Below are positions 1,636 to 19,715 of a DNA stretch of 19,715 bases, in pieces. The translations under genes and the position numbers were made by a program. The first letter of the stretch is position 1; the number at the start of each line of letters is the position of its first letter. The stretch covers positions 1-19,715 of the forward strand of contig JAAZIH010000153.1 in the NCBI GenBank assembly GCA_012800995.1, in the 5' to 3' direction. The notes beneath the pieces were generated by a model, which searched no databases, had not been told where the DNA came from, and worked only from the letters and a program-made list of their open reading frames with translations. Source of the DNA: Chloroflexota bacterium. GTDB lineage: Bacteria > Chloroflexota > Anaerolineae > Anaerolineales > Anaerolineaceae.

Positions 1636-1638
1636 ATT

Positions 1639-2815: not shown

Positions 2816-2831
2816 GTAAAAAGCTTGGTTT

Positions 2832-4061: not shown

Positions 4062-4098
4062 TGGATTACTTTCTTATCGGTCTTTTGTCATCCCATTT

Positions 4099-5396: not shown

Positions 5397-5443
5397 TTCA
5401 AGATGAATTTATACTTCTATTTCGTGCCTGGCATTTTTAACGT

Positions 5444-5485: not shown

Positions 5486-7255
5486 ATGAACCCTATTCTT
5501 TTAATTGTGCTTGTCGCACTTGCTATTATCCTCATCACAATCGCGGCAATTGCGCTTGTGCGTGCCATGCAGTTCCCAATCGATTTAGGCGAAACAGTAA
5601 GTGTGCAACTGCCCGTTATTGATGGCGAAGAAGTAGCTGAGCACATCGGGCTTGCCCTTCAGCTAAAAACGATTAGCGATCCTGACCCCAGTAAAACAGA
5701 CCCTCTTCCTTTTGTGGGTTTTCGTAATCTGATAAGAACGCTCTATCCTGCAGTATTCGACAACCTACAAGAAGAGCTGATTAACGACCACGCCATTCTG
5801 CTCACCTGGCAAGGCACTGATCCCTCGCTAAACCCCATCGCCTTCACCTCGCATCAGGATGTTGTACCTGCCGATGATGGTCCCGATTCACCCTGGACCT
5901 ATCCGCCCTTTAGTGGCACACTCGCTGATGGTTATGTCTGGGGACGGGGTGCTTTGGATACAAAAGGCACCTTAATTGCCTTGCTTGAAGCAACGAACAA
6001 CTTGCTGCGCGAAGGCTTTAGACCCCTGCGAACCATTTACCTCGCTTTTGGTCACGATGAAGAAGTATCCGGCACCTATGGTGCCAAAGCCATTGCCGAG
6101 ACACTCGAAAGACGGGGTGTTCAGTTAGCTTTTTTGCTTGATGAAGGTGGCTTCGTTAGCGAAAGTATCATGCTAGGTGTCAAGGCACCCGTTGGTCTGA
6201 TTGGTGTTGCCGAGAAAGGCCATGTCACCCTCAAACTGCGCGCGGAAGTTAAAGGTGGCCACAGCGCCTACCCACCTGAAAACACTGCCATTGGCGCGCT
6301 AAGCCTGGCAATTTCTACACTTGAAGCCAATCCTTTTCCACAAACACTTGATATGGTTGAATTCATGATGAGCTTTGTGGGTAGTGAGTTGCCTTTTAGT
6401 CAGCGTCTGGTACTTGCCAACCCCTGGCTCTTTGGCAATACCGTCAAAAAACGCTGCGCGGCAAATCCCCACCTCAATGCCATCACCCGCACGACCCTCT
6501 CGCCCACTATCATTCATGCTGGTGACGCGGAAAACGTTTTGCCCTCAGTAGCAGAAGCAATCATCAACATCCGCATCATGCCCGGCGAAACGCTGGCAAG
6601 CACCTACGAACGTGTGCGCGATTTGGTCGCGGATGATGTTGTTTCCGTTTTGCCCGCCTATGGGGATCAGCTGATGGGAGACCACAGCTGGGATCCGGTG
6701 GAAATCTCTGATATCGATTCGCCTTACTTCCATATGCTTTATCAGTACATTCGCGCTGCATTCCCTGGTGCCCAAGCCACGCCTATTCTCATACCCGGAG
6801 CTACCGACGCGCGCCACTATCGCAATGTTTGCAAGCGCACCTTCCGCTTTTCACCTGCCCAGATTAGCTCTAAAGAATCCAACCGCACACATGGCGTAGA
6901 CGAACGCCTGTCTTTCGAAAACGCTGCCAGAATGGTTTCCTTCTTCCAGCTTTTAATGCGAGATATGAGCCAATTAAGCGCCCAGGCTGAGAGGAGCGTG
7001 AATGAGCAAGAGGATTTTCAAAATGAAAGTTTTGAAGACAAAGCCTTACGGGAAATGAACGAACCTTTAGCAACCCGACCCATGCGCCAGGGTCCACCTG
7101 CTGCGGCTGTCTTTGAGCCTGCTGAATTAGACAAAGCAGAACTTAGCGAAACGGCTGAAACCGTCGCCAAAGAAGCAACTGAAAACATCTATGAAGATTT
7201 TGACAACTTTGATGACGACGCGCCCCTAAAAACAAGACCTCTTAAGAAAGACTAA
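5486..7255 (+). CDS. Membrane-anchored M20 family zinc carboxypeptidase
   Basis: Peptidase of 589 residues related to the Cps1/PM20D1 branch of family M20, which cleaves (or can form) amide bonds of N-acylated amino acids and dipeptides. Residues 3-28 are a single hydrophobic anchor. Metal-site motifs are all present: SHQDVV (H123, D125), GALDTKG (D158), FGHDEEVSG (E192 as the catalytic base, E193), LLDEGG (D219) and THGVDERL (H469 as the last ligand). The lid domain lies between. A C-terminal tail from about residue 492 has no counterpart in the family. It is acidic and low-complexity (QEDFQNESFEDKAL, YEDFDNFDDDAP). The next gene starts two bases after the stop, making an operon. Topology of the single helix is unclear, so the cell side of the active site is not assigned. 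Confidence 0.9.
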   Translation: MNPILLIVLVALAIILITIAAIALVRAMQFPIDLGETVSVQLPVIDGEEVAEHIGLALQLKTISDPDPSKTDPLPFVGFRNLIRTLYPAVFDNLQEELINDHAILLTWQGTDPSLNPIAFTSHQDVVPADDGPDSPWTYPPFSGTLADGYVWGRGALDTKGTLIALLEATNNLLREGFRPLRTIYLAFGHDEEVSGTYGAKAIAETLERRGVQLAFLLDEGGFVSESIMLGVKAPVGLIGVAEKGHVTLKLRAEVKGGHSAYPPENTAIGALSLAISTLEANPFPQTLDMVEFMMSFVGSELPFSQRLVLANPWLFGNTVKKRCAANPHLNAITRTTLSPTIIHAGDAENVLPSVAEAIINIRIMPGETLASTYERVRDLVADDVVSVLPAYGDQLMGDHSWDPVEISDIDSPYFHMLYQYIRAAFPGAQATPILIPGATDARHYRNVCKRTFRFSPAQISSKESNRTHGVDERLSFENAARMVSFFQLLMRDMSQLSAQAERSVNEQEDFQNESFEDKALREMNEPLATRPMRQGPPAAAVFEPAELDKAELSETAETVAKEATENIYEDFDNFDDDAPLKTRPLKKD

Positions 7256-7257
7256 GC

Positions 7258-8703
7258 ATGTACTTATCTTCAAAAAACAACGAACCTTACATCGCCATCA
7301 TTCTCATTTTGGCAATTATCTTTTTTGCCATTATGGTCGCTTTTGGCGCAATTATGCTCAAGGGTTTGCGCTCAAACGCCTGGAATAGCCCAGCCAGGTC
7401 TGAACCAAACCCCGACAACATAACAACACCACAAGAAGCCAAGCCAAGTGATAAGCCCAATACTGCCGTAGAAAGCGAGCAGCACACCACCGATGAGAGC
7501 GCATCATCAGCCACCCTTGATGCAAAAACAGAAGAGGCGATGAATCTTATTGAAGAGCAGGTTAGCCAGATACGTCTCTTGTCTGTGAAAGATGCTATTC
7601 CGCGCAAAGTGCTTAGCCCTGATGAACTACGGGCTTATGTGGAAGAAGAATTGCTTGAAGACTTGGAAGATGAAGACGCGCAGGAAGATGTGCGCCGATT
7701 CGCGCTTTTGGGGCTCTTTCCGCCTGACCTTGAAATGCGCCAACTGCTTGAAGATCTTTATTCAGAACAAATCGCGGGCTTTTATAAAATCGAAGAACGC
7801 GAGATGGTTGTGGTTGCCGGGGGAGACTTTGGTATCAGCGAACGCCTCACTTACGCGCACGAATATGTGCATGCCCTGCAATACGCTAACTACGATTTTG
7901 AAAACGACCTTGGCTACAGCGAAGAAGCTTGTGAGACAGATTCGGAGCGTTGCGCGGCAATTCAGGCACTTATTGAGGGAGATGCCAACTTTACGCAGCT
8001 CAAATGGTTTGAGACCCACGCCACACACAAGGACATTCTCGAATTCCTCACCAACGTTGAGAGTTACGAAAGTCCTGTTCTTGATTCTGCCCCACCTTAT
8101 CTTTCCGCATCGCTGATGTTTCCTTATAACGTGGGTACCACTTTCGTGGAACATCTTTTCGACATGGGTGGTTATGACGCCATCCATCAGGCTTACACCA
8201 CAACACCCCCGGTTAGCACCGAACAAGTTATGTTCCCTGAGCGTTATCCGGATGACATCCCTCTTGAAATCAACTTGCCAGATCTCAGTTTGTCATTAGG
8301 CAGTGGATGGGATATCGACCAGGAAGGTGTTGTTGGCGCATGGGATATCTATATGATGCTCAGCCAGGGTTACGAGGAGCGTTTCCAAATTGACGCTGAA
8401 GAAGCTTTATTTGCCGCTGAAGGATGGGGTGGCGATTCCTACGCTTTTTTGAGTCATGAAAACGATGATGAACGTCTCTTTGTGATGAAAACCGTGTGGG
8501 ATAGTGAAAAAGACAGCCTGGAAGCCTGGGAGGCTTTTAGCAAGTGGCTTGACTTGCGATTTGGCACGGCAGATGGCATTGGCATTTACAGCAACGAGGA
8601 GGTCTTCGCGCGTGTCTTCAAGACCGGTAACAATGGCTTTGTCCTGATTATCTCTGAGGGTCTCGAAAGCCTTAACAGGGTTTACGATTTTCTGAATGAG
8701 TAG
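7258..8703 (+). CDS. Membrane-anchored HEXXH protein, putative metallopeptidase
   Basis: Protein of 481 residues. It has one N-terminal transmembrane helix (about 11-35), a polar Pro/Ser/Thr/Glu-rich linker (40-90), an acidic helical segment (ELLEDLEDEDAQED near 131-144) and then a metalloprotease-like core. LTYAHEYVHALQ gives HEXXH with H201, E202 and H205. ALIEGDA places E240 as a likely third ligand, the gluzincin arrangement seen in Peptidase_MA-type domains. C222/C225/C232-like cysteines are sparse (EEACETDSERCAA), a possible disulfide if the domain is outside. The C-terminal 200 residues are not recognised. I know no named family for the full protein. It starts two bases after the M20 gene and overlaps the HAD gene start, so the three are co-transcribed. 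Zinc-peptidase function is inferred from the motifs only. Confidence 0.78.
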   Translation: MYLSSKNNEPYIAIILILAIIFFAIMVAFGAIMLKGLRSNAWNSPARSEPNPDNITTPQEAKPSDKPNTAVESEQHTTDESASSATLDAKTEEAMNLIEEQVSQIRLLSVKDAIPRKVLSPDELRAYVEEELLEDLEDEDAQEDVRRFALLGLFPPDLEMRQLLEDLYSEQIAGFYKIEEREMVVVAGGDFGISERLTYAHEYVHALQYANYDFENDLGYSEEACETDSERCAAIQALIEGDANFTQLKWFETHATHKDILEFLTNVESYESPVLDSAPPYLSASLMFPYNVGTTFVEHLFDMGGYDAIHQAYTTTPPVSTEQVMFPERYPDDIPLEINLPDLSLSLGSGWDIDQEGVVGAWDIYMMLSQGYEERFQIDAEEALFAAEGWGGDSYAFLSHENDDERLFVMKTVWDSEKDSLEAWEAFSKWLDLRFGTADGIGIYSNEEVFARVFKTGNNGFVLIISEGLESLNRVYDFLNE

Positions 8704-9442
8704 GAGTTTAAAAACAGAGCGCATGTCCCCTAAAAACGCCCCTTTTCAATCAAGACTCGACCGCGGAAAAGTAAAAGCCTTACTCTTTGATATTGATGGC
8801 ACACTTTCAGACAGTGATGACGAAATGGTTGCCTCAATATACGCGCGCATGGCATGGCTCAGCCCGCTTATCAAAGAAACGCGTCTGCATACTTTCGCGC
8901 GCCAACTGGTACGATTTTTTCAAGCGCCAGCCAACCGCTTTTTAGCTTTTCTGGACCATATTGGCGTCGACAGTCACCTGGCACGTTTTTTGGATTACCG
9001 CGCGCGGAAAAAGAAGGCGGTTCCTGAAGATTTTCCGGTTATCCCCGGTGTGCATCCGATGTTGGATGCCCTCCACAAACGCTATCCCTTCGCGGTTGTT
9101 TCCGCGCGTAACAGCGTCACCGTAGAAAAATTCTTACGCGTCAACGATTTGGAAAACTATTTTGAGATTGTTATCAGCTCACAAACCTGCGAGAAGACCA
9201 AACCGTTCCCCGACCCGCTGCTTTATGCCGCTTCGGAGCTGGGCGTGCCCATAGAAAATTGCCTGATGATTGGCGACACACTCACCGATGTGCGCGCCGC
9301 TTTGGCTGCCGGGGCGCAGTCGCTCTCCGTTTTGTGTGGCTTCGGAACCGAAAAAGAACTGCGTAAAAGTGGCACGCATCATATCCTGACAAGCACAAGC
9401 GAACTGGCAGACTTACTCAACCAGCAAGATACTACAGAGTAG
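8696..9442 (+). CDS. HAD-family phosphatase (phosphoglycolate phosphatase-like)
   Basis: Cytoplasmic HAD hydrolase of up to 248 residues. Motif I is LLFDIDGTLSDSDDE (D32 nucleophile, D34 acid/base). Motif II is probably VVSARNS. Motif III Lys is in EKTKPFPDP, and motif IV is GDTLTDVRAA. The helical cap sits between motifs I and II, as in PGP/Gph-type enzymes. The exact substrate is unknown. The start is uncertain. ATG 8696 overlaps the upstream stop by eight bases (ATGAGTAG) and would be coupled; ATG 8723 lies downstream of an AGGAG at 8702-8706 but at a long distance. Both keep the full domain. It is the third gene of the M20-HEXXH operon and converges on the MFS gene, with 56 bases between stops and no convincing hairpin there. 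Confidence 0.86.
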   Translation: MSRSLKTERMSPKNAPFQSRLDRGKVKALLFDIDGTLSDSDDEMVASIYARMAWLSPLIKETRLHTFARQLVRFFQAPANRFLAFLDHIGVDSHLARFLDYRARKKKAVPEDFPVIPGVHPMLDALHKRYPFAVVSARNSVTVEKFLRVNDLENYFEIVISSQTCEKTKPFPDPLLYAASELGVPIENCLMIGDTLTDVRAALAAGAQSLSVLCGFGTEKELRKSGTHHILTSTSELADLLNQQDTTE

Positions 9443-9498
9443 ATGTCTTCCTGAAAAAGCCCCAAAAAAAACAAGCGAATGACAAGAAAGAAAACAGA

Positions 9499-10845
9499 CT
9501 AAACTCTATCCTGGTATTCGGGTAGTATTTGCCCGCCAGGACCTTGCCAGTCAAGTGTTGCCATTGGTTTATACAAGAGCATAACAATGGCAAGCACAAC
9601 ACAAGCTGTGCCACCGATAATGAACCAGGCAGAAATTCCCAGCCATTCCGCGATTGGCGCGGCAATCAGCAATCCGATCGGCACTGTGGCTTGAACAAGC
9701 GAACCCATCACCGTAAACACGCGCCCCTGCAATTCTGGCGGGATTTTGTCTTGAAAAAGCGCGCTTAGTGGCCCGTTGGCAAACGTGTTGGCGATACCAA
9801 AAAACACCGTGATAAAAACAGCCACGGTATATCCCTGGGCAGGAAGAAAGCCGAACGCGAGCATGCCAAGACCCATCGAAAAAATACCCGTAACAACAGT
9901 CAATATTTTGCGTTTAAAGCCACCCCACACACTCAGCACCAAGCCACCAACAATTGAACCCACGCCCAGAGCGGAATAGAGAAATGCCAGTCCATCTGAG
10001 CCTTTCTGAAAAAACTGATCAACATGCAGTGGCAAAAGGCTGAAAGATGGCGCGGCAGTCATGTTGATAAGCGTCCCACCGATCATGGCGGCAAAAATAC
10101 CCTTCCAGCTGATAACATAGGCAAAACCGTCTTTGACATCGGTCAAGACTGTTTTGATACTCGTGGCTACTTTTTCCGATTTCTGCTTGGGAGGTTGCGG
10201 GATCTTAACGACCAGCAATAAAAGAATAGCTATTGCTGCGGTGACAATATCAACCGCTATCACCGCCTGAATGGGCAATAAGGACATCAATAACGCGCCC
10301 AAAGGAGGTGACACAATGGTGATAATGCCGTCCACAGCATGCGAAACACCCGCTAATCGGGTGTAATGCTCCCTGGGAACCATCAGCGTAATTGAAGCAC
10401 TCATCGCCGGTCCCTGGAAGATTCCCCCCACGGAACGAATGAAGAGAATAGCGTAAACATGCCAAATTTGAATTTTTCCAATAGCAAACAAAAAGGCTAA
10501 TAAAAGCGTTGCCAGGGCGATGACACCATCTGAGATAATCATGGTTAATTTTCGGTTCCAGCGGTCTACCAACGCGCCAGCAAAAGGACCCAGGATAACA
10601 CTGGGCAAGACTCCCGTGATGGTTGCCATAAGAAGCGTAATCGCTGAACCGGTTTCTTTGGTAATAAACCAAATCAGCGCGAAATGCACCAGCCCCGAGC
10701 CAAGCATGGAAAGAATCTGCCCCACACCCATCGGCAGGTAGTTTTTAAGCCATTTGTCTGGCAGTTCGGGCTGGGCATCCGGCGCGATAATTGCTTCATC
10801 AGCCACTGATGGCTGTTCCGTAGCGGTGTTTGGGTCCTGGTTCAT
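9499..10845 (-). CDS. MFS exporter of the DHA3 / EntS-MefA type
   Basis: Twelve-helix transporter of 448 residues. A 30-residue polar, acidic N-terminus (MNQDPNTATEQP...) precedes the first helix. MGVGQILSMLGSGLVHFALIW is the typical first helix of the DHA3 group, which includes enterobactin and macrolide exporters. Motif A is GALVDRWNRK between helices 2 and 3. A central cytoplasmic loop rich in Lys/Gln (PQPPKQKSEKV) splits the two halves. The likely start is ATG 10845, two codons inside a GTG at 10851; a TATAAT lies 25 bases upstream of the ATG. Substrate is unknown. It is on the same strand as the upstream DUF4143 ATPase but has its own promoter, so an operon is not required. Confidence 0.87.
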   Translation of the reverse strand: MNQDPNTATEQPSVADEAIIAPDAQPELPDKWLKNYLPMGVGQILSMLGSGLVHFALIWFITKETGSAITLLMATITGVLPSVILGPFAGALVDRWNRKLTMIISDGVIALATLLLAFLFAIGKIQIWHVYAILFIRSVGGIFQGPAMSASITLMVPREHYTRLAGVSHAVDGIITIVSPPLGALLMSLLPIQAVIAVDIVTAAIAILLLLVVKIPQPPKQKSEKVATSIKTVLTDVKDGFAYVISWKGIFAAMIGGTLINMTAAPSFSLLPLHVDQFFQKGSDGLAFLYSALGVGSIVGGLVLSVWGGFKRKILTVVTGIFSMGLGMLAFGFLPAQGYTVAVFITVFFGIANTFANGPLSALFQDKIPPELQGRVFTVMGSLVQATVPIGLLIAAPIAEWLGISAWFIIGGTACVVLAIVMLLYKPMATLDWQGPGGQILPEYQDRV

Positions 10846-10876
10846 AAGCACTCGTTTCTTAACGATGGCTATTATA
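10846..10876 (-). promoter_or_regulatory. Promoter of the DHA3-type MFS gene
   Basis: A minus-strand TATAAT occupies 10876-10871. Transcription would begin near 10864, giving a leader of about 18 bases. No good -35 was found, and only a weak GAG-containing ribosome site precedes ATG 10845. Confidence 0.5.
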
Positions 10877-10906
10877 CAGCAAGTTCATCCGCGAAACGAA
10901 AAAATG

Positions 10907-12247
10907 TCATTTATCGAGCACAAAATTCAGCATATATATTGGCAGAAATGAGATATTTTCTTTCTCCATTCTGTCCTTCTGAGAAAGTATATAAGCTTTA
11001 GACACCACTTGATGATACTTTGCGATGAAATTTTTCATTGATTCATGCTTACCTGTACCCGATGACTTTACCTCTATCGCGTTAATTTTCGAATCGACAG
11101 GAACAAGAAAGTCAATTTCATAGTAATGTGAGCTTCCTTCTTTATTCCAGGTATGATAATACAGTTCCTGTCTGGTAGATGCTATCATCTGTGCGACTGC
11201 GTTCTCATAAAGGTAGCCTAAATTAGCTGGCAATTTATCCGAAAGCAACTTCGTGTATATTTCATTAGCAACTTTTGGTCTGTCAATAAACATGAGCGTG
11301 ATAAACAAGCCCGTATCTGCCAGATATAACTTATAGTTGTCCAGCGATTTGGTTAACGCCAGGCTAACAACGGGATCAGTCGTGTTGTATGCAATTTGCA
11401 CTGTTCTTGAATCAACCAAATCGAAAAGCAACTCATCGTCCCCAGGTCCTTTCCTCTTGCCTGTTGCTTCAGAAATGATAAATTTTTTGTAATCTTTGGA
11501 TAACTGAGCTGGTACAGACCTATATAAAGCTGATAATCTTCCACTTGGATCTATTTTCTTAAAATCATCCTCGTAAAGATCAATGATGGTCCTTTTGACC
11601 TTATCGATTTCCACTAGGTTTTTCCCCGCCAAATAGGCTTCTACAGCTTGTGGCATTCCTCCCACAGACATATATACCCTAAAATCTCTCATCCACTTCC
11701 GATTGATTTCCTGTCCGACTTGTTTACCAGTTTCAAAGACTTTTTTGCTTAGATCAAAAACGTTACTGTCAATCGCCCAGCAAAACTCCTCGAAATCCAT
11801 TGGGTATATTTTTAACTTTAATTCTTCAGACGGAATTAGAATGTCTTTTACATTCTTTTTAATCGATATCAAAGACCCGGTTTCAATATAGTGATATCGA
11901 CCATCTTTAACCAGATACTTTATCGCTTGACGTGCTTTAGGAAACAATTGGATTTCATCGAAGACAATAACTGAATCGCCTTTAACAAGTGTTTGCCCTG
12001 AAGCTGCCTGAAGTCTTAAAAAGAACATATCTAAATCATGGATGTCATCAAAGCAGGCTTTTATCGCATCAGAGGTACTGGCAAAGTCGATGATAATCGA
12101 CGCGGCATATTCATTCCGCGCGAATCTTTCTACAATAGTCGATTTACCGACACGTCTTGGTCCTTCAAGTAAAATGCTGTAGGAATCAGCATCTTCTTTT
12201 TTCCACTTTAGTAAGCTGTCATATGCTTTTCTTTTGAAGTACATCAT
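10907..12247 (-). CDS. AAA ATPase with DUF4143 C-terminal domain (first copy)
   Basis: ATPase of 446 residues from the widespread AAA_14/DUF4143 family, whose cellular role is not established. Walker A is GPRRVGKST (29-37) and Walker B is VIVFDE (93-98). IETGSLISI is the sensor-like strand. The C-terminal DUF4143 domain has a PD-(D/E)XK nuclease-like pattern: YYEIDFL (E377, D379), then AIEVK (E392, K394). All motif residues are intact. A GAGG site lies four bases before ATG 12247 and seven before the adjacent ATG 12244, so either may be used. Hand counts of sample rows give 35-42% G+C here against 58% in a sampled row of a neighbouring gene, a hint of horizontal acquisition. Four evenly spaced repeats lie just upstream. 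It has no obvious partner gene. Confidence 0.9.
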   Translation of the reverse strand: MMYFKRKAYDSLLKWKKEDADSYSILLEGPRRVGKSTIVERFARNEYAASIIIDFASTSDAIKACFDDIHDLDMFFLRLQAASGQTLVKGDSVIVFDEIQLFPKARQAIKYLVKDGRYHYIETGSLISIKKNVKDILIPSEELKLKIYPMDFEEFCWAIDSNVFDLSKKVFETGKQVGQEINRKWMRDFRVYMSVGGMPQAVEAYLAGKNLVEIDKVKRTIIDLYEDDFKKIDPSGRLSALYRSVPAQLSKDYKKFIISEATGKRKGPGDDELLFDLVDSRTVQIAYNTTDPVVSLALTKSLDNYKLYLADTGLFITLMFIDRPKVANEIYTKLLSDKLPANLGYLYENAVAQMIASTRQELYYHTWNKEGSSHYYEIDFLVPVDSKINAIEVKSSGTGKHESMKNFIAKYHQVVSKAYILSQKDRMEKENISFLPIYMLNFVLDK

Positions 12248-12294
12248 ATTGCCTCTTTTTCAGTAAACACTGCCTTGCTTAGTCCGCGCTTCTG

Positions 12295-12408
12295 CATTTG
12301 TTCAATATTATTAAGGCAGTATATTGTCATTTCTTCAATATTATATTAGCACATTAATGTCATTTGTTCAATATTTCAAGTGCCTTAATAACGCATTCCT
12401 TCAATATT
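12295..12408 (-). repeat. Four direct repeats (CATTTGTTCAATATT) at exact 33-bp steps
   Basis: Plus-strand copies lie at 12295-12309, 12328-12342, 12361-12375 and 12394-12408. Copies 1 and 3 are identical; copy 2 has C at position 6 and copy 4 has CC at positions 5-6. Start-to-start distance is 33 bases in all three steps, close to three DNA turns, so bound proteins would sit on one face. The 18-base intervals differ except for a GC at positions 7-8. The array lies 48 bases upstream of the minus-strand ATPase gene, between it and the PlsC-like gene. A minus-strand TATAAT (12345-12340) overlaps the copy at 12328. TTGAAC in the next copy could be a -35, but the spacing (20) is long. The array probably consists of operators or iterons. 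Confidence 0.85.
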
Positions 12409-12505
12409 TAGTGTTATTGGCTTTCAAAACATTCATTTTTTTACAATTCCACATAAAATCGCAAATCGTTGTAAAATAAGACATCACCTCATTGGGACGG
12501 TTGCT

Positions 12506-13207
12506 ATGAAAAAGACTAAATTCCGTGAAGAACACCAAAAAAAATATCCTTATCCGCGTTATCAATTTCGTCGAGCGTTGCTCCGCGGAGGAATCGGCTT
12601 TTTGGCATGGCTTTTGCTTAATTACGAAGTAGAGGGCAAAAAAAACCTGCCTAAAGAAGGTCCCCTCCTGGTCGTCAGCAACCATTTTCATTTTTTGGAT
12701 ACCATCGGTCCGATACACACCACCCGATACCCTTTGGAGTTTATCAACGATGCTGTTATGCCCATGGCGCCAGGCAAGTTGAAATTCCTGCCAGGGCTCT
12801 GGAAAACACTGCGCATCCGACAAGGCACAGCCAACCTTGAAGCTATGCGAGCCGCGGAAGCAGTCCTGGCACAGGATGGCATTTTAGCGATTATGCCAGA
12901 AGGGCATGCGCATAAACCGCCTCTGCATGAAGCTCTGCCCGGCGCGGCTTTTTTAGCACTTCGCCTGGGCGTGCCCATTTTACCCATCGGCACCTTTAGT
13001 GAGGATAATTGGGACATTTTTGGCACACTGCGCAATAAAAAACGCAAAGCTCGCGTCATCTCGAAAATTGGCAAACCCTTTGGACCATTAAGCGCCGCGG
13101 ATGGTGGCAACCGCCCCTCCAGAGAGGATGTCGAACGCGCTGGACACGAAATCATGAGCCAGATCGCTGCCCTTTTACCGCCTAAAGTGCGTGGGGCATT
13201 TGGCTAA
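12506..13207 (+). CDS. PlsC-like 1-acyl-glycerol-phosphate acyltransferase
   Basis: Lysophospholipid acyltransferase-family protein of 233 residues that would acylate lysophosphatidate (or a related lysolipid) at the membrane. A basic N-terminus is followed by a hydrophobic stretch (GGIGFLAWLLLNY, 28-40). The catalytic H-x4-D motif is NHFHFLD (H60, D65). The phosphate-binding block is MPEGHAHK (131-133 is PEG); the usual Thr-Arg-Ser after PEG is replaced by His-Ala-His, a departure seen in divergent members. VPILPIG is the last block. No strong Shine-Dalgarno precedes ATG 12506; TAAAAT at 12472-12477 is a possible -10. The gene is divergent from the ATPase, so it shares the repeat-containing region. 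The acyl acceptor is not certain. Confidence 0.85.
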   Translation: MKKTKFREEHQKKYPYPRYQFRRALLRGGIGFLAWLLLNYEVEGKKNLPKEGPLLVVSNHFHFLDTIGPIHTTRYPLEFINDAVMPMAPGKLKFLPGLWKTLRIRQGTANLEAMRAAEAVLAQDGILAIMPEGHAHKPPLHEALPGAAFLALRLGVPILPIGTFSEDNWDIFGTLRNKKRKARVISKIGKPFGPLSAADGGNRPSREDVERAGHEIMSQIAALLPPKVRGAFG

Positions 13208-13256
13208 CACCCTCTTTTGCCCGCTTGATATTAACACGCTTTATACATTGATTTGC

Positions 13257-13262
13257 TATTAT
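13257..13262 (+). promoter_or_regulatory. Extended -10 promoter of the DnaJ-like gene
   Basis: TGCTATTAT (13254-13262) is an extended -10 element. The predicted leader is about 25 bases. No Shine-Dalgarno was seen before the two possible ATGs (13294 and 13300), and no heat-shock CIRCE element was recognised. Confidence 0.4.
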
Positions 13263-13293
13263 CAGGATGTTAATAGCTTAATTAAGCCGTGAA

Positions 13294-14295
13294 ATGATTA
13301 TGGAATACAAGGATTACTACAAAACTTTAGGCGTTTCTAAAACCGCAAGCGACGATGAGATCAAAAAAGCTTATCGTGATTTAGCACGCAAATATCACCC
13401 CGATGTCAACAAAGACCCAAATGCCGAGGAGATGTTCAAAGAGGTCAACGAAGCCTATCAGGTACTTTCGGACAGCGAAAAGCGTCAGAAATACGATCAA
13501 TTGGGCTCAGAATGGCAGCAATACCAACGCGCGGGTGGCCAACCTGGTGGATTTGACTGGGGACGCTGGCAACAACAACCTGGTCAGGGTGGTGGCTACC
13601 GCACGATGACCCATGAAGAATTCCAGGAGATCTTTGGTGGCATGGGCATGCCAGGTGGTATGGGTGGTTTCAGTGGCATGGGGGGCTTTTCGGACTTTTT
13701 CACCTCGCTCTTTGGCGGAGGTTTTAGTGGTGGCTTTTCATCCACCGGCACTGGGGGCACTTACAGCCAGGGAGGACCCAGCTACCGCACCCAGGCGCCA
13801 GCCAGGCGTGACGTTGAACATGAGACTGAGATCACCCTTGAGGAAGCCTACCACGGCACACAACGTAGCCTCAGGTTTTCTGATGGGCGAACGATTAATG
13901 CCAGCATTCCTGCTGGCGTGGATACCGGTTCGAAAGTGCGTTTGAGCGGTCAAGCCGATGGCGCGGACCTGTATTTACTTATCAAAGTATTACCTCATAA
14001 AGTTTTTAACCGTAAAGGCAACAACCTGCTGATTGATCTGCCGGTTGACTTTTACACCGCCGCTCTGGGTGGTGAGGTAGAAGTGCCCACGATGGGTAAA
14101 ACGGTTAAACTGAACATCCCCGCTGGAACCAACACCGGCAAAACCTTCAGACTCAAAGGCTTAGGCATGCCGGCCCTGCGTAAAAAAGAGCAAAAGGGTG
14201 ACATTCTGGCTAAAGTGGAGATTCACCTACCCAAACCGCTCAGCCAGGCTGAGAAAGAAAAACTCCAGGCTCTGCGTAATGAGTATCATAGATAG
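13294..14295 (+). CDS. Class B DnaJ co-chaperone (CbpA-like)
   Basis: J-domain protein of up to 333 residues that would stimulate DnaK ATPase and deliver unfolded clients. The J domain occupies about 4-70 with the essential HPD at 35-37 (KYHPDVNKD). A Gly/Phe/Met-rich region (about 75-165, for example [20 protein letters not shown]) follows. Next come two beta-sandwich client-binding domains (about 170-333) with [19 protein letters not shown] and [19 protein letters not shown]. The cysteine zinc finger of class A DnaJ is absent, which makes it class B (CbpA type). The start is ATG 13294 or the second ATG at 13300 (MEYKDYYK); the latter matches family N-termini better. It stands alone, without dnaK or grpE nearby, and ends at a hairpin terminator that is also the first palindrome of the next gene's operator array. 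Confidence 0.94.
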
Positions 14296-14333
14296 AGCAG
14301 GCGTTTCACCCAAAAACCAATCATTTAAATCAC

Positions 14334-14363
14334 AAAACTGTCAGATATAACTGACAGTTTTTT
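14334..14363 (+). terminator. Hairpin terminator after DnaJ-like gene
   Basis: An 11-bp stem (14334-14344 with 14351-14361) encloses a 6-base loop, and the T run reaches 14363. This can end dnaJ-like transcription. The central 18 bases are also the first of three operator-like palindromes, so the element may have two jobs. Confidence 0.65.
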
Positions 14364-14434
14364 CTTTTTAATCTTTTTATCAGTTATATCTGACACTTTC
14401 TTGCTTTTTTTCTTTTTGTCAGTTATAACTGACA
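14339..14434 (+). repeat. Three palindromic operator-like sites at exact 39-bp steps
   Basis: Sites lie at 14339-14356, 14378-14395 and 14417-14434. The third, TGTCAGTTATAACTGACA, is a perfect 18-bp palindrome. The first differs at position 7 and the second at positions 2 and 12. Both steps are 39 bases, and the 21-base intervals are T-rich on this strand. The third site overlaps the probable -10 of the second DUF4143 ATPase gene, which begins 16 bases after it. This looks like a repressor array controlling that gene. Confidence 0.88.
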
Positions 14435-14449
14435 CTATCGAGGTGAGTT
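14401..14449 (+). promoter_or_regulatory. Promoter and RBS of second DUF4143 ATPase gene
   Basis: TTGCTT (14401-14406) and TATAAC (14424-14429) are exactly 17 bases apart, and the -10 is the centre of the third palindrome. A protein bound there would block polymerase. GAGG at 14440-14443, six bases before ATG 14450, is the ribosome site and fixes the start. Confidence 0.55.
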
Positions 14450-15664
14450 ATGATTATCCGAGAAAATTATCTTAAAAAAATCGACCCGTTTATTGACAAA
14501 CCGATTATAAAAGTGTTTACTGGATTGCGCAGAAGCGGAAAGTCTGTTTTGCTTGAACAAATTCAGGACCGTCTTATCATGCAAGGGGTTGAGCCCTCAC
14601 AAATCTTCACGCTCAATTTTGAATCCGCGAAAGCCATGCACATCCACGATAGTCAAGACTTAATCGATGAAATTCAAAATCGACCCTTTGATTTTAGTAA
14701 AAAAGTCTACATTTTTTTGGATGAAATTCAGGAAGTTCAGAACTGGGAACGCGCGGTTAATACCTTTCGCGTTGACTTTGATTCCGATATTTACATCACC
14801 GGCTCCAACAGTTCGCTCCTATCCGGAGAACTGGCAACTTACCTTGCTGGTCGATATGTGGAATTTCAAATTTATCCCTTCTCATTCCTCGAGTTCACAC
14901 AATTACTTGAACACACACCATTAAAGCTTGATCAAAACGCCGCCTTTAATTTGTACATCAATCTTGGCGGAATGCCGTTTCTACACCATCTCAACTTTGA
15001 CGTGGAACCCTCAAAACAATATCTAAAAGATCTTTACGCATCAGTTGTGGTTAAGGACATCGTCAGCCGACACAATATCCGCGATGTTGACCTTTTACAA
15101 CGGGTCATCCTGTTTTTGATGTCAAACATCGGCAATCCCTTTTCAGCCCGTAGCATTTCAGCCTATTTAAAAAATGAATACCGCGCGGTCGCGCCCGAAA
15201 CAGTCATCAACTACATTAAAGCCACCCTGGATGCTTGTCTGTTTTATCCGGCAAAACGACAGGATTTGCGGGGCAAACGCATTTTGCAAATGGATGAAAA
15301 ATATTACCTTGCTGATCATGGCATTCGCCAGGCGGTTTATGGTGAAAATTTTAGGGATATCCATCTCATCCTTGAAAATATTGTGTTTATGGAACTTTTA
15401 AGGCGTGGCTTTGAGGTCACGGTTGGGCGAATGGGCGAAAAGGAAGTTGATTTCGTCGCGGAAAAAGCTGAACAAAAGCTATACGTTCAGGTGAGCTATA
15501 TTATGAGTGATGAAGCCACCTTCAATCGCGAGATATCGCCCCTGCTGGACATCAAAGATAACTACCCGAAATACATCATTTCCATGGATCCAGTTAATCG
15601 CAGCACACAAGGTATAAAACACGTGCATATATTGACATTCTTACTGGAGACAGAGAGTTTATAG
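14450..15664 (+). CDS. AAA ATPase with DUF4143 C-terminal domain (second copy)
   Basis: ATPase of 404 residues, same family as the gene at 10907-12247 but clearly a different subgroup. Walker A is GLRRSGKS (25-32), Walker B is VYIFLDE (86-92) and the sensor strand is ITGSNSSLLSG (116-126). The family stretch LAGRYVEFQIYPFSFLEF follows. Residues about 215-275 (SARSISAYLKNEYRAVAPETVINYIKATL in part) look like a winged helix, a possible DNA-binding part. The C-terminal nuclease-fold-like domain has EVDFV (E332, D334), but the usual E-V-K is VQVSY (347 is Gln, 350 is Tyr), so nuclease activity is doubtful; this variant is common in the subgroup. Three evenly spaced palindromes lie upstream. Its own binding to them is a hypothesis. 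Confidence 0.92.
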   Translation: MIIRENYLKKIDPFIDKPIIKVFTGLRRSGKSVLLEQIQDRLIMQGVEPSQIFTLNFESAKAMHIHDSQDLIDEIQNRPFDFSKKVYIFLDEIQEVQNWERAVNTFRVDFDSDIYITGSNSSLLSGELATYLAGRYVEFQIYPFSFLEFTQLLEHTPLKLDQNAAFNLYINLGGMPFLHHLNFDVEPSKQYLKDLYASVVVKDIVSRHNIRDVDLLQRVILFLMSNIGNPFSARSISAYLKNEYRAVAPETVINYIKATLDACLFYPAKRQDLRGKRILQMDEKYYLADHGIRQAVYGENFRDIHLILENIVFMELLRRGFEVTVGRMGEKEVDFVAEKAEQKLYVQVSYIMSDEATFNREISPLLDIKDNYPKYIISMDPVNRSTQGIKHVHILTFLLETESL

Positions 15665-15666
15665 GC

Positions 15667-15680
15667 TACAATAGAGCAGT
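15667..15680 (+). promoter_or_regulatory. Near-leaderless promoter of LOG-family gene
   Basis: TACAAT (15667-15672) is followed by eight bases and ATG 15681. The predicted leader is zero to two bases, and there is no Shine-Dalgarno. The -10 lies just after the ATPase stop codon, so the LOG gene is probably transcribed independently of the ATPase. Confidence 0.5.
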
Positions 15681-16274
15681 ATGGAAACTACCTTTTATAA
15701 AAACATCACCGTCTTTGCCGGCTCGGCGGATGGGCTGCCCGCAACCCATATGCGAATCGCCTGGCAACTTGGCGAAACACTTGCCAAACAAAACCGCACG
15801 CTCATCTATGGTGCTGGCTCAACCGGATTGATGGGCGCGGTAGCCAACGGTGTGCTCGAGAACCATGGCGAGGTTATTGGTGTGGTAAACGACGTGCTCA
15901 ACCTTGAACACCTCATCCATGCCAACCTGACCAAACTTGAAACAGTTAGAGACATCCAAACACGCCAAAAGCGTATGCTTGAGTTAGCGGATGGCATTAT
16001 TGCCCTGCCCGGTGGCTATGGCACCTACTACGAAACCGTTGAGGCGCTCACCTGGGCACAAATCGGCTTGCACACCAAACCGATTGGCTTGCTGAATATC
16101 GAAGGTTATTTTGAGCCCTTCGTGCGCATGGTTGAACACAGCATCGCCCTGGGTTACATTTATCCGGAACACCGCGGGCTCTTCATCGTCGCAGAAAACC
16201 CAACTGAGCTTTTGCAAAAAATGGATGCGTTCGTTCCACCCCAAAACATGAACAGGTGGTTAGACCGCACATGA
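15681..16274 (+). CDS. LOG-family nucleoside 5'-monophosphate phosphoribohydrolase
   Basis: Rossmann-fold hydrolase of 197 residues of the LOG/YvdD (TIGR00730) family. It releases the base from cytokinin-type or purine nucleoside 5'-monophosphates; older annotations call it lysine decarboxylase, which is wrong for the family. Motifs are YGAGSTGLMGAVANG (43-57), RDIQTRQKRMLELADG (90-105) and the catalytic PGGYGTYYE (110-118, with E118). The commonest form is PGGxGTxxE, so the site is intact. It overlaps the following HAD gene by four bases (ATGA), making a two-gene operon. Together the pair could dephosphorylate or hydrolyse nucleotides in a salvage or house-cleaning route. No cytokinin biosynthesis gene is nearby. 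Confidence 0.9.
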   Translation: METTFYKNITVFAGSADGLPATHMRIAWQLGETLAKQNRTLIYGAGSTGLMGAVANGVLENHGEVIGVVNDVLNLEHLIHANLTKLETVRDIQTRQKRMLELADGIIALPGGYGTYYETVEALTWAQIGLHTKPIGLLNIEGYFEPFVRMVEHSIALGYIYPEHRGLFIVAENPTELLQKMDAFVPPQNMNRWLDRT

Positions 16275-16912
16275 TTAATCAGATCACGACCCTTCTCATC
16301 GATCTTGACGACACCGTATACCCCACCTCACTCAATATTTGGCCGCTGTTCATGGCTCGCATTAATAGCTACTTGACTGATGTTTTGGGTGTACCTAAAG
16401 AGGAAGCAGGAGCACTTCAATATCGGCTCTTTAAGCAATACGGCACAACTTTGCGCGGTTTACAAATTGAACGCGAAGTGGACATGCATGACTATCTTGA
16501 TTATGTCCATTACGTGGATCTTTCGGAGCATATGCAACCGGACCCTGCCCTGCGTGCAGCGCTTGAAAGCCTGCCGCAGCCCAAGTGGATTTACACCAAC
16601 GCCAGCGTTGCTCACGCGGAAAACGTTTTAGGACTGATGAATTTGCGCGACTTGTTTGAGGGAATCATTGATGTTGTTGCCACTGCCCCCTATTGCAAGC
16701 CCGAAGTGGGCAGCTACGAAATCGCGTTAAATTTGGTTGGTAATCCCAGACCAGAAAATTGCCTCTTTATTGACGACCGCAGCAACAACCTTGATACCGC
16801 GCGCGCCCTAGGAATTCACACTTTACAGGTCAAACCTATACCCGATGGTGACCATCCATCCATCAGTCATCTCATACATCTTCCAGATTATTTGCACCAA
16901 ACAAAGCTTTAA
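16271..16912 (+). CDS. HAD-family pyrimidine 5'-nucleotidase-like hydrolase
   Basis: Cytoplasmic HAD phosphatase of 213 residues resembling the TIGR01993 (Sdt1-like) pyrimidine 5'-nucleotidases. Motif I is LLIDLDDTVYPTS (D11, D13), and the DDTxYP form is diagnostic of this group. The motif II region is WIYTNAS. Motif III Lys lies in YCKPEVGSYE, and motif IV is CLFIDDRSNNLDTARALG. The helical cap falls between motifs I and II. The start is ATG 16271, which overlaps the LOG gene's TGA, so translation is coupled; an in-frame GTG at 16256 is rejected. Co-expression with a nucleoside monophosphate hydrolase supports a nucleotide substrate. About 150 bases follow before the S41 gene, with no convincing terminator. 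Confidence 0.88.
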   Translation: MINQITTLLIDLDDTVYPTSLNIWPLFMARINSYLTDVLGVPKEEAGALQYRLFKQYGTTLRGLQIEREVDMHDYLDYVHYVDLSEHMQPDPALRAALESLPQPKWIYTNASVAHAENVLGLMNLRDLFEGIIDVVATAPYCKPEVGSYEIALNLVGNPRPENCLFIDDRSNNLDTARALGIHTLQVKPIPDGDHPSISHLIHLPDYLHQTKL

Positions 16913-17028
16913 TAACCTTGTGTTGAATGCCTCTTTTTCTGTTTGAGATTTGTAAACATTCCCATAATCTTTCTATAAGGCTCGGTGAAAAAACCTCGAA
17001 TATGGTATTCTTAAGCATTGTATAGAAC

Positions 17029-17046
17029 CAACGCAGCTATGCGTTG
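17029..17046 (+). promoter_or_regulatory. Perfect inverted repeat in leader of S41 protease gene
   Basis: CAACGCA (17029-17035) and TGCGTTG (17040-17046) form a 7-bp stem with the loop GCTA. It lies only four bases before the TGGAGG ribosome site (17051-17056). In RNA it would be a hairpin at or near the 5' end, perhaps stabilising the transcript. In DNA it could be an operator. TATAGA at 17021-17026 is a possible but weak -10. Confidence 0.5.
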
Positions 17047-17061
17047 ACTTTGGAGGTATTC

Positions 17062-18411
17062 ATGCAAAACAATTCAAACCGCACAACAATCACCATTGTC
17101 CTCATTGTGCTCATCGTTATTACATCCTTTGCGACTGGACTTGCCACGGGCAGTATTGTCAAAAACAACCCCATTCGCATGGCACTTGGTTACGATAAAG
17201 TCTATACTGGCAGCGGTAGTGATGGAACTTGCCCTGTCTGCGTTTGTCCAAATGAGGATGGCGATATTGTTGGTCTTGAATGTGATCCCTGCCCGGCAAT
17301 CCAATTTGGCGCGGATGCGGGCAAATGCTCTGAGTATGTCAGCTCGTCAACCCCACGCGAACTGCAAACTTTATTTAAGCCCTTCTGGGAAAGCTGGGGC
17401 TACCTGCACAAGCATTACGTTGACCAACCTTTGGACGACGTCTTACTGATGCGCGGTGCAATTGAAGGCATGTTGGCTGCCACGGGCGATAAACATACCT
17501 CCTACATGGACCCGCATACTTACGAACAAGCCAATGCTGAGATGGAGGGCTCGTATACAGGAATTGGTGCCTGGGTAAACACCTCCGGTGATTACGTTGA
17601 AATTGTTTCTCCCATGAAAGGCTCCCCCGCTGAAGAAGCCGGACTAAAGCCCAAAGATATCGTCATTGCCGTGAACGGTAAAGACACCACTGGAACAGCA
17701 GGTGATATCGTTTTGCAATCCATCCTCGGCCCTGCAGGCGAAGTGGTCGTTTTGACTATCCGCCGTGGTGATGAAGTTTTTGACGTCAGCATTACCCGCC
17801 GTGTTATTCAAATACCGGTTGTTGATTACGAAATGCTTGAAGGCGACATTGCTTACATCGCGCTTTACACCTTCAACGATAAAGCGGTTGAGCAAGTTGA
17901 AAACGCTTTGAACGATCTCATGCCGCAAAATCCTAAAGGGCTCATTTTTGACCTTCGCGATAACGGCGGTGGTTATCTTTATGCAGCCATTGATATTTCT
18001 GCCATGTTTATAAAAGAAGGCGTTATCCTTTATGAAGAATATGGTGATGACACCCGCGATACATATCGTGCGGATGGCAACGCCATTGCGCCTAATGTGC
18101 CTATGGTGGTCTTAATCAACGGTGGTTCTGCTTCCGCGTCCGAGATTGTTGCCGGCGCGCTGCAAGATCATGGTCGCGCCACATTAATCGGTGAGGTGAG
18201 CTACGGAAAAGGCTCTGTGCAAAGTTGGATTGATTTATCTGACAATCAGGGTGGTGTGCGCATTACAATTGCGCGTTGGTTAACTCCTAACGGCAATCAA
18301 ATTGCTGAAATTGGACTCACACCAGACATTGAAGTGCCCTATACCGAAGCTGATTTTGAGGCGGGCATAGACACACAACTCAACGCCGCGATTGAGTATT
18401 TTAAGAAATAG
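17062..18411 (+). CDS. S41 C-terminal processing protease (CtpA/Tsp type) with Cys cluster
   Basis: Membrane-anchored serine protease of 449 residues that degrades or trims exported proteins from their C-termini. Residues 9-33 are a single hydrophobic anchor. A cysteine-rich insert (C57, C60, C62, C74, C77, C89) lies between the anchor and the conserved domains, which is unusual for the family. An N-terminal helical part (HKHYVDQPLDD) precedes the PDZ domain (about 163-250; GSPAEEAGLKPKDIVIAVNG). The protease core has NGGSASASEIVAGALQDHG with S358 and YGKGS with K383, the Ser-Lys dyad by spacing to E. coli Tsp. The start is ATG 17062, with TGGAGG five bases upstream; the in-frame TTG at 17044 is rejected. 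The YugP-like gene follows 26 bases later and may be co-transcribed. Confidence 0.93.
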   Translation: MQNNSNRTTITIVLIVLIVITSFATGLATGSIVKNNPIRMALGYDKVYTGSGSDGTCPVCVCPNEDGDIVGLECDPCPAIQFGADAGKCSEYVSSSTPRELQTLFKPFWESWGYLHKHYVDQPLDDVLLMRGAIEGMLAATGDKHTSYMDPHTYEQANAEMEGSYTGIGAWVNTSGDYVEIVSPMKGSPAEEAGLKPKDIVIAVNGKDTTGTAGDIVLQSILGPAGEVVVLTIRRGDEVFDVSITRRVIQIPVVDYEMLEGDIAYIALYTFNDKAVEQVENALNDLMPQNPKGLIFDLRDNGGGYLYAAIDISAMFIKEGVILYEEYGDDTRDTYRADGNAIAPNVPMVVLINGGSASASEIVAGALQDHGRATLIGEVSYGKGSVQSWIDLSDNQGGVRITIARWLTPNGNQIAEIGLTPDIEVPYTEADFEAGIDTQLNAAIEYFKK

Positions 18412-18437
18412 ACTTGTTTTGAAAGGATAAATCAAAG

Positions 18438-19130
18438 ATGCCTTTTAACCTGACTTACATCTTTTTTATTTTGCCGGGCTTGATACTGTCAATCATTGCC
18501 AGTATCGCTGTAAATTCAGCCTATAAGAAATGGAGCAGAGTTAGCAACACACGCAACATGACCGGGCTCCAGGTTGCGGACTATCTTAAAAACCGTTATC
18601 AACTCGATGAATTGCGCTTTGTTCAAACTCAAGGCACGCTCAGCGACCATTACGACCCCAGCAGTAAGACCCTGGCTCTCTCGCAGGGTACCAGCACTAT
18701 ACCATCTGTGGCGGCCATGGCTATAACCGCGCATGAACTTGGACATGCCATGCAGGACCGCGATAATTACGCCCCAATGAAAATACGTCGTGTGCTCGTG
18801 CCCGTCGTCAATATTGGCTCCAACGTTGGCATGATTTTGGTCGTGATTGGCATGGTACTAAACTTGATGGGATTGGCAACAATTGGTGTCATCCTGTTTG
18901 CCAGCACGACCTTATTCTCACTCATTACCGTGCCCATTGAGCTGAATGCTTCAAAACGCGCGAAAGCGATGCTTGAAGAAAGTTATTTGATGACCAGTGA
19001 TGAGGAACGTAAAGGCGTTAATAAAGTGCTCAATGCTGCGGCATGGACTTACGTAGCCGGGCTAATAACCTCAATTCTGCAGTTGCTTTATTACGTTTCT
19101 TTGATTGGCGGTGGCAGGCGCAGATCATAA
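18438..19130 (+). CDS. YugP-like membrane neutral zinc metallopeptidase
   Basis: Integral membrane metallopeptidase of 230 residues of the YugP/Zn_peptidase_2 family. An N-terminal helix (8-28) is followed by a cytoplasmic or surface segment (NMTGLQVADYL, RFVQTQGTLSDHYDP). The HEXXH is AHELGHAMQ (H99, E100, H103), and PIELNASKRA supplies E168 as the probable third ligand. Two long hydrophobic stretches (about 117-165) lie between, and a last helix (about 203-222) ends in GGGRRRS. All catalytic residues are intact and length is normal for the family. GAAAGGA about ten bases upstream is the ribosome site. It ends before a hairpin terminator. Function is unknown in vivo; membrane protein quality control alongside the S41 protease is a plausible inference. 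Confidence 0.93.
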   Translation: MPFNLTYIFFILPGLILSIIASIAVNSAYKKWSRVSNTRNMTGLQVADYLKNRYQLDELRFVQTQGTLSDHYDPSSKTLALSQGTSTIPSVAAMAITAHELGHAMQDRDNYAPMKIRRVLVPVVNIGSNVGMILVVIGMVLNLMGLATIGVILFASTTLFSLITVPIELNASKRAKAMLEESYLMTSDEERKGVNKVLNAAAWTYVAGLITSILQLLYYVSLIGGGRRRS

Positions 19131-19163
19131 GCTTGCTTAGACATCATTAGACATTAACTATCG

Positions 19164-19196
19164 CCGCTCCATCTTATACAGATTGGGCGGTTTTTT
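19164..19196 (+). terminator. Rho-independent terminator after YugP-like gene
   Basis: CCGCTC (19164-19169) pairs with GGGCGG (19185-19190) with one G-U pair, followed by six T residues (19191-19196). The stem is short and the loop long, but the T run and the position 33 bases after the stop support it. Confidence 0.65.
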
Positions 19197-19213
19197 ATAT
19201 GAGTATCTTTTAC

Positions 19214-19266
19214 ATCGGTGCAATTCGCTCAATTCTATCGGTGCGTTTTGCGTTATTTCATCGGTG
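19214..19266 (+). repeat. Three ATCGGTG repeats at exact 23-bp steps upstream of pepF
   Basis: ATCGGTG occurs at 19214-19220, 19237-19243 and 19260-19266, both steps being 23 bases. The first two copies share a further C and several later bases. The repeats lie between the YugP-like terminator and the pepF promoter, ending about 66 bases before its -10. They may be activator sites. A 7-bp core is short, so chance is less excluded than for the longer arrays. Confidence 0.6.
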
Positions 19267-19332
19267 TGATTAACAGCTGAGATTATCCAGTTCCTAAATG
19301 TCACATCAACACCTTGCCACACACGAACAAGG

Positions 19333-19368
19333 TATAATTTTTTCATCTAAAACGAACAGGAGCACATT
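19333..19368 (+). promoter_or_regulatory. Promoter and RBS of pepF
   Basis: TATAAT is at 19333-19338 with no good -35. AGGAG at 19358-19362 lies six bases before ATG 19369 and fixes the start. The predicted leader is about 24 bases. Confidence 0.65.
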
Positions 19369-19715
19369 ATGACACCAACCCGATGGGATCTTTCTAATAT
19401 TTACACAGGCCTTGACGACCCAAAACTCGCCGAGGACATTCAATTCATCAAAACTGTAGCCGCGGAACTCTCCGCACTTTACGAAAAAGAGCTCGCGCCA
19501 GCCCTCAACTCAGACATCAGCGCAGAGGCTCTTAGCCAGCGCCTCAACCGCATCATTGACGCCCGCAATGAAATCAGTATCAAAGCCAATTCCATTATGG
19601 GATATTTAGGTCTGACCCTTAGTGTCGATTCCTTCAACAAGGAAGCAGAACAACTTTATTCCAAAGTGCAAATTGAGATGATCCCACTAAGCAACCTGAG
19701 CAATCGCCTCTCCGC
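19369..19715 (+). CDS. pepF: Oligoendopeptidase F, M3 family (5' part only)
   Basis: The first 115 residues of a cytoplasmic zinc oligopeptidase, cut by the window end. The start, TRWDLSNIYTGLDDPKLAEDI, is the signature N-terminus of PepF/M3B enzymes. The following helical segment (LYEKELAPALNS, then LNRIIDARNEIS) is the family's N-terminal lobe. The full protein is usually about 600 residues, and its HEXXH would lie outside the window. PepF hydrolyses peptides of roughly 7-17 residues, completing breakdown of imported or proteolytic peptides. The frame is open with no internal stop to base 19715. A strong ribosome site and -10 precede it, and three short repeats lie further upstream. Confidence 0.88.
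   Translation, partial: MTPTRWDLSNIYTGLDDPKLAEDIQFIKTVAAELSALYEKELAPALNSDISAEALSQRLNRIIDARNEISIKANSIMGYLGLTLSVDSFNKEAEQLYSKVQIEMIPLSNLSNRLS

Follow-up and report, generated by a model that had tools for sequence, protein, structure and literature searches.

A 19,715-nucleotide stretch of a Chloroflexota bacterium (Anaerolineaceae; GenBank assembly GCA_012800995.1, contig JAAZIH010000153.1, positions 1 to 19,715, forward strand), referred to below as the window, carries two genes for ATPases with AAA_14 and DUF4143 domains, ATPase 1 and ATPase 2. Three palindromes upstream of the ATPase 2 gene quite probably form this protein's own operator array, which the ATPase would bind, repressing its own promoter. 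Where detected, arrays in this family are private to their genes as far as searched, keep a pitch bound to the protein clade, overlap predicted promoters and, in one clade, change together with the recognition helix. The pattern is real and wider than stated in an earlier note on this DNA.

A three-palindrome array upstream of ATPase 2

The array is composed of three 18-bp palindromes (TGTCAGWTATAWCTGACA) starting at 14339, 14378 and 14417, with steps of 39 and 39 bp. The second copy differs at its start (T-A instead of T-G), and 15 bp separate the end of site 3 from the ATPase 2 ATG. The array and its surroundings comprise the following features:

14339..14356, no strand: operator site 1, TGTCAGATATAACTGACA; terminator-like with a T-run behind it; kept in the orthologs of genomes G095 and G079
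14378..14395, no strand: operator site 2, TATCAGTTATATCTGACA; pattern match, conserved in orthologs
14417..14434, no strand: operator site 3, TGTCAGTTATAACTGACA, a perfect palindrome; pattern match, conserved in orthologs
14401..14406, + strand: putative -35, TTGCTT, from a promoter scan; TTGATT in G095 and G079
14424..14429, + strand: putative -10, TATAAC, centred in site 3, from a promoter scan; same layout with TATAAT at loci L055 and L056
14440..14445, + strand: putative ribosome-binding site, GAGGTG, read from the sequence

With up to three mismatches allowed, the pattern is matched three times in the window, against 0.01 expected, and three matches occur in 0 of 200 shuffles. The positions and the exact 39-bp steps given in the earlier note are confirmed. 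At the same tolerance, the window's three sites are the only matches in the 1.38-Mb genome (81% complete), across which a reversed control pattern has zero matches.

All promoter boxes described here are predictions from sequence scans. In the window, TTGCTT and TATAAC are spaced by 17 bp and form a weak pair; a strict scan omits it from its list and reports a different one, and a longer scan scores a pair at palindrome 1 at 6.5 and the pair at palindrome 3 at 6.4. We place the -10 in site 3 because the orthologs show TTGATT-17-TATAAC and relatives have better promoters. The claim that palindrome 3 covers the -10 holds for the central position of TATAAC, and its reading as a promoter element leans on these orthologs and relatives.

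The sites are private to ATPase 2 orthologs

Searches for orthologs and for further sites covered 147 genomes of the host's taxonomic family, including that of the window (G000). Relatives of ATPase 2 at E <= 1e-20 are present in 40 of the 147. The operator word TGTCAGNTATANCTGACA, with at most one mismatch, was found in four genomes: G000, G095 and G079 have three sites apiece, and G125 has one stray match. All sites in the first three precede ATPase 2 orthologs (93% identity for G095 and 69% for G079), with steps of 39/39 bp in G000, 39/39 bp in G095 and 40/40 bp in G079. A three-way alignment reveals almost invariant palindromes, with spacers that have diverged except at the T-tracts and at the CTTG belonging to the putative -35.

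The earlier note had named two findings that would count against its reading: palindromes missing from orthologs, or palindromes before many unrelated genes as sites of a known global regulator. They are present in both close orthologs, and among the 147 genomes they stand only before orthologs, apart from the stray match. Global-regulator sites were rejected on these counts, with three sites in the window's own genome and a distribution of three genomes plus one stray. No regulator gene is common to the neighbourhoods viewed.

The array and the gene lie between a dnaJ-like gene and a LOG gene. LOG was located in 25 of the 29 genomes of the genus; at 15 of these 25 loci dnaJ and LOG are adjacent (~50-150 bp apart) with no ATPase gene, and at three (G000, G095 and G079) the ATPase gene is present. 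Seven of the 25 have no dnaJ within the piece examined, and the dnaJ of G079 likewise lies outside its piece. No close relative lacking the array-ATPase unit was found. Probably the array and the ATPase 2 gene entered the dnaJ-LOG interval as one unit and have stayed together since.

Architecture of ATPase 2

ATPase 2 is composed of an ATPase part, a winged helix and a C-terminal domain resembling PD-(D/E)XK nucleases, as follows:

14450..15664, + strand: ATPase 2, 404 residues, AAA_14 and DUF4143, PADLOC PDC-S01; from the open reading frame, Pfam and PADLOC
15086..15310, + strand: winged helix, residues 213-287, in the AlphaFold2 model
15194..15232, + strand: putative recognition helix, residues 249-261, the third helix of the winged helix; from the AlphaFold2 model and helix-operator links
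15350..15646, + strand: PD-(D/E)XK-like domain, residues 301-399, with Q347 and S349 replacing E/Q-x-K; from the AlphaFold2 model and alignment

The AlphaFold2 model has a whole-model predicted local distance difference test score of 91.2. The winged-helix-like region that the earlier note had read at residues 215-275 appears in it as a confident winged helix at 213-287. Both ATPases of the window exceed the cut-offs for the PADLOC PDC-S01 models (best E 2e-157 and 8e-92) and for both Pfam models; we take the family label to be COG1373. Among solved structures, residues 1-298 come closest in fold to 2qen and 2fna, followed by STAND proteins and Orc1/Cdc6; a sequence search of the PDB found no relative with an E value under 0.4.

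The C-terminal part follows the PD-(D/E)XK order of elements, with E332, D334 and Q347 and a serine at 349, presumably the equivalents of the nuclease motif. The catalytic lysine is found in none of 42 genes whose upstream repeats have a step of about 40 bp, in 12 of 15 aligned genes with a step of 33 bp, and in 40 of 160 overall. Since the step-40 clade has no catalytic lysine, DNA cutting is probably not its conserved function.

Evenly spaced repeats upstream of many DUF4143 genes

The family-wide survey comprised 215 DUF4143-type genes in 237 loci (genomes, plasmids and viral contigs), of which 162 genes remained once similar sequences and those with under 110 bp of upstream sequence had been removed. 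As controls we took 158 segments lying upstream of non-target genes at these loci, leaving out any region close to a target. Direct and inverted repeats were tested separately, each against 40 shuffles, a direct repeat being significant if at most two of the 40 reached its score.

Significant direct repeats precede 73 of the 162 targets and 26 of the 158 controls. Their step falls at 32-34 or 38-43 bp in 52/73 targets, compared with 2/26 controls. The mean excess profile of the targets peaks at 33 bp (1.20) and at 39-41 bp (1.24, 1.91 and 0.69), with lesser rises at 32, 42, 78 and 80 bp, over a background standard deviation of 0.14; the controls never exceed 0.37. Inverted repeats scoring above all 40 shuffles are present at 71/162 targets and 12/158 controls (odds ratio 9.5, p 2.5e-14). 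Taken together, an inverted repeat or a 32-34/38-43-bp step repeat is significant for 102 of the 162 DUF4143 genes and for 22 of the 158 controls. A palindrome-only test, whose controls could include intergenic regions shared with targets, found 20/89 targets and 6/102 controls above all 60 shuffles. A detector requiring near-identical palindromes misses many arrays.

The DUF4143 family numbers at least 7995 proteins at E <= 1e-30. A scan of viral contigs with a single protein as query found no relative, and the few additional loci from later scans were not entered in the statistics. Upstream of L144, L146, L150 and L154, tandem short palindromes are replaced by very long inverted repeats with arms of 20-29 bp set 7-13 bp apart. 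Plasmid records with relatives (e.g. L182) number 230, of which 173 are from Acinetobacter; on the one Acinetobacter record inspected, a sul2 gene flanks the relative on one side and an IS17-type transposase on the other.

Step follows the protein clade, operator word does not

When the 162 proteins are placed on a quick tree, a single change parts the 42 genes whose step is about 40 bp (or double) from the 16 whose step is 33 bp. Shuffled step classes require a mean of 14.1 changes, with 0/500 as low as one. The test left out 15 significant repeats with other steps, and 104 of the 162 genes carry no step label. ATPase 1 and ATPase 2 represent one member of each class.

The step thus follows the protein clade; the operator word does not. 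Paralogs in one genome carry words that differ by eye, as in five genes of G043 and four of G042, and two genes of G099 have two different operators. The two G099 words were searched in nine genomes. Word 1, with up to two mismatches, is matched at 0-2 mismatches before its own genes in G088 and G099; G047, G048 and G092 have one two-mismatch stray each. One-mismatch matches of word 2, which is AT-rich, stand only before its own genes in G075 and G092; two-mismatch matches precede such genes in G075, G083 and G099 with one stray in G047, and three-mismatch strays are many. Those DUF4143 (PDC-S01) lineages in which an array can be detected each use operator words of their own.

Helix and operator change together in the 33-bp clade

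A set of 41 orthologs was drawn from 53 loci by a Walker-A signature that was chosen after viewing the output, with protein identities of 46-96% (median 67%). The operator consensus of this 33-bp clade is TTTTCATT-GAC-AATGAAAA. Its centre, TTGACA, can be a -35, placed 17 bp upstream of TAT.AT, and a second copy of the consensus lies 33 bp further on, centred on the start codon. Site positions -8 to +8 are 63-98% conserved, 12 of the 17 at 80% or more, compared with 27-49% for positions -41 to -14. In the clade (L332 and 40 other loci), ~6 bp lie between the end of the consensus -10 and the start codon, and the mRNA may thus lack a leader.

Half-sites were derived gene by gene with the consensus unused, some letters resting on two of four halves. 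The half-site reads [AT]TTTCA with a looser end in 39 of the 41 genes. The operator core departs from this in L255 (ATTCTATT) and L336 (TATTCATT), the same two genes, alone among the 41, whose recognition helix has an altered start (GNVTT and KSLNT, respectively); the other 39 read GS[VIA]NT. For unrelated genes, this coincidence would have a chance of 1 in 820 by our own arithmetic, which ignores shared ancestry. At L331, L334, L345 and L350, with 55-57% identity to the reference, both helix and word are unchanged. Helix and operator change jointly in this one clade.

Family-wide links between helix and word were picked after viewing the sequences and are post hoc throughout. PET at residues 249-251 accompanies an AGWTATA word in 5/8 genes versus 3/154 (those three with TET, KET and AET), and Y253 accompanies GG/CG-n-TATA words in 11/21 versus 2/141. 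VDT occurs with ATCGA in 3/5 versus 7/157, and SQ[NS]T with CCGAA in 4/5 versus 10/157.

Operators overlap predicted promoters

Of 24 strong promoter predictions, 13 have their -10 at most 4 bp from a lattice place, compared with ~5 expected by our own arithmetic (Rayleigh p 0.016). Looser promoter thresholds yield 17/37 (p 0.069) and 20/42 (p 0.042). L055 and L056 share the window's layout, with a TATAAT preceded by TTGAAT or TTGATT. A site is centred on the predicted -10 in the window and at L055, L056, L183, L008 and L037. The conserved operator overlaps its own promoter as predicted from the scans.

Proposed mechanism and alternatives

In the reading that we prefer, ATPase 2 would bind the three palindromes through its winged helix, cooperatively, with the geometry of its oligomer fixing the ~40-bp step. 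The bound protein would cover its own -10 and repress its own promoter. Operator and gene would form one unit, with each DUF4143 lineage using its own word and a step set by the protein clade. We infer a release signal and a final effect of the released protein as further parts of this reading.

Several results weigh against it. Neither an inverted repeat nor a step repeat is significant upstream of 60 of the 162 DUF4143 genes, although the earlier proposal that each such gene carries its own addressable operator array, in which binding is presumed, is supported for a large part of the family. A random-shift test of promoter overlap gave 22/36 against 21.4 expected, and in several genes the last clear site only abuts the -35. 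In G079, 292 bp separate the end of the array from the start codon. The helix-word patterns are, as stated, post hoc, and one of them, VNT with TTGTCAA, is a poor link (2/14 versus 1/148). Pairwise covariation between protein and operator is weak in general, including in the 40-bp clade. The first test had a best partial r of 0.16, with permutation maxima of up to 0.21. The second (26 genes) gave p 0.075 for the predefined helix set, 0.13 without the closest pairs, and r 0.28 for residues 249-257. Its best windows fall at about residues 308-321 (window 15371-15412), where 0/100 permutations are as good; that stretch lies outside the winged helix and belongs to the opening helix of the PD-(D/E)XK-like domain. 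The third (36 genes) gave r 0.115, a value attained in 46/2000 permutations and equalled by 65/1000 random residue sets; for distant pairs alone the count is 178/2000 permutations. The covariation between palindrome and winged helix that the earlier note had suggested looking for is thus seen as joint change in the 33-bp clade and in post hoc links, and general pairwise tests are weak or mixed.

The 292-bp stretch of G079 (L050, G079:C5:60959-61250) contains GTGGAGGCGTGGATTGAAAC, which we take to resemble the end of a CRISPR repeat.

The ATPase might instead bind the array as an activator, or the array might be the place where a sensor or effector complex of the Orc1/Cdc6 or STAND kind rests; we consider this unlikely. 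Where a site abuts the -35, an activator would fit too. The sites centred on the -10 in the window and its relatives suit repression, however, as do those of the 33-bp clade centred on the -35 and the start codon.

It is improbable that the arrays are read by another DNA-binding protein of the host. That binding by the ATPase is something we infer, and that pairwise covariation is weak, would be in keeping with such a factor. The distinct words of paralogs in one genome would, however, demand equally many host factors, the step classes track the ATPase tree, helix and operator change jointly in the 33-bp clade, and the window's sites are found nowhere else in their own genome.

Very improbably, the palindromes are ends or target sites of a mobile element with the ATPase gene as its enzyme. 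The absence of array and gene from the dnaJ-LOG junction at 15 of 25 genus loci and the occurrence of relatives on plasmid records and on contigs classed as viral favour this explanation. Against it, no palindrome copy was found downstream of the ATPase 2 gene or elsewhere in the genome, the sites are located on predicted promoters, and all 42 step-40 genes are without the PD-(D/E)XK catalytic lysine. Mobile-element ends were rejected, as copies at both ends of the unit were not found.

That the palindromes work as RNA, in terminator or attenuator hairpins, is scarcely credible: palindrome 1 with its T-run (14334-14361) does score as terminator-like, but G079 keeps the palindrome and loses the T-run, exact 39/40-bp steps would be meaningless if the sites acted as hairpins, the proposed promoter lies downstream of palindromes 1 and 2, and the window has no Rfam match. 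The earlier note's assignment of palindrome 1 as terminator of the dnaJ-like gene accordingly applies to the window and is not a conserved role; termination as the main role was rejected because the T-run is not conserved.

Returning to self-repression by ATPase 2, a possible but doubtful extension is that DUF4143/PDC-S01 proteins are self-addressed sentinels, in which a STAND-like ATPase sits on a private promoter lattice as a switch, with its pitch set by the protein. Emptying of the lattice, through titration, a change in copy number or an invader that acts on the ATPase, would derepress the gene and trigger its effect, and paired changes of helix and operator would make new addresses. If this were true, many paralogs could coexist in one genome without cross-talk.

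Relation to known systems

Archaeal Orc1/Cdc6 initiators have origin boxes beside their own genes. ATPase 2 shares with them an AAA+ plus winged-helix fold; it differs in that its array is a predicted promoter and in carrying a PD-(D/E)XK-like domain. Residues 1-298 fold-match the STAND proteins NLR, CED-4 and Apaf-1, and the model matches the MalT entry 8bob, all switch-like ATPases. Unlike STAND proteins, including the transcription factor MalT, ATPase 2 in its model shows no sensor repeat domain and ends in a PD-(D/E)XK-like part after residue 300, and its operators are private, not shared. The archaeal AAA+ ATPases 2qen and 2fna differ by their low identity (14-19%), and their aligned range includes no counterpart of the C-terminal PD-(D/E)XK-like domain.

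PDC-S01, whose PADLOC models and AAA_14/DUF4143 domains both window ATPases match, is a very common family that PADLOC lists as a phage-defence candidate. One survey ranks it fourth among defence systems across prokaryotes, describes it as an ATPase plus PD-(D/E)XK and states that most PDC systems still await validation (PMC12988326). A rumen survey reports it as the most frequent single locus type (PMC13356809). For a Thermus gene with DUF4143-type domains, one paper reports a 6.6-fold rise in RNA with plasmid, in a strain with Argonaute. RptR is similar in being reported as a repressor that silences a defence locus, its targets being restriction-modification systems (PMC12255303). In PDC-S01, by contrast, the role of repressor seems to fall to the candidate defence ATPase, each with a private site.

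The operator arrays are what the present analysis adds to PDC-S01. In the literature searched, to the extent of its accessible text, no operators or autoregulation of the DUF4143/PDC-S01 family are described, and within that reach the arrays, their division into two step classes and the link to the helix are new findings. Being readable and present upstream of a sizeable share of PDC-S01 genes, the private operators would offer a first handle on their mechanism, as the operator reading predicts the protein's target, pitch and self-control. Paired helix and operator words could yield a recognition code and orthogonal repressor-operator pairs.

ATPase 1 and neighbouring genes

The remaining features of the window comprise ATPase 1 with its array and the two genes bordering the ATPase 2 unit:

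10907..12247, - strand: ATPase 1, 446 residues, AAA_14 and DUF4143, PADLOC PDC-S01, of the other step class (33 bp); from Pfam and PADLOC
12301..12408, - strand: putative ATPase 1 operator array, four TTCAATATT units at 12301, 12334, 12367 and 12400, with exact 33-bp steps
13294..14295, + strand: dnaJ-like gene, left border of the array and ATPase 2 unit; from domain search and locus comparison
15681..16274, + strand: LOG (lysine-decarboxylase-like) gene, right border; directly after dnaJ in 15/25 genus loci

The 33-bp step repeat of the ATPase 1 array is significant in the family-wide tree test. The earlier note had ascribed the same logic to both arrays of the window; each is indeed evenly spaced and precedes one ATPase gene, but the steps differ and belong to two clade-bound classes (33 and ~40 bp). 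A third DUF4143 gene of the same genome (L001, G000:C294, open reading frame at 898), which is not part of the family-wide test set, is preceded by two ACCACAATnCTCTC-like words, ~46 bp apart by eye.
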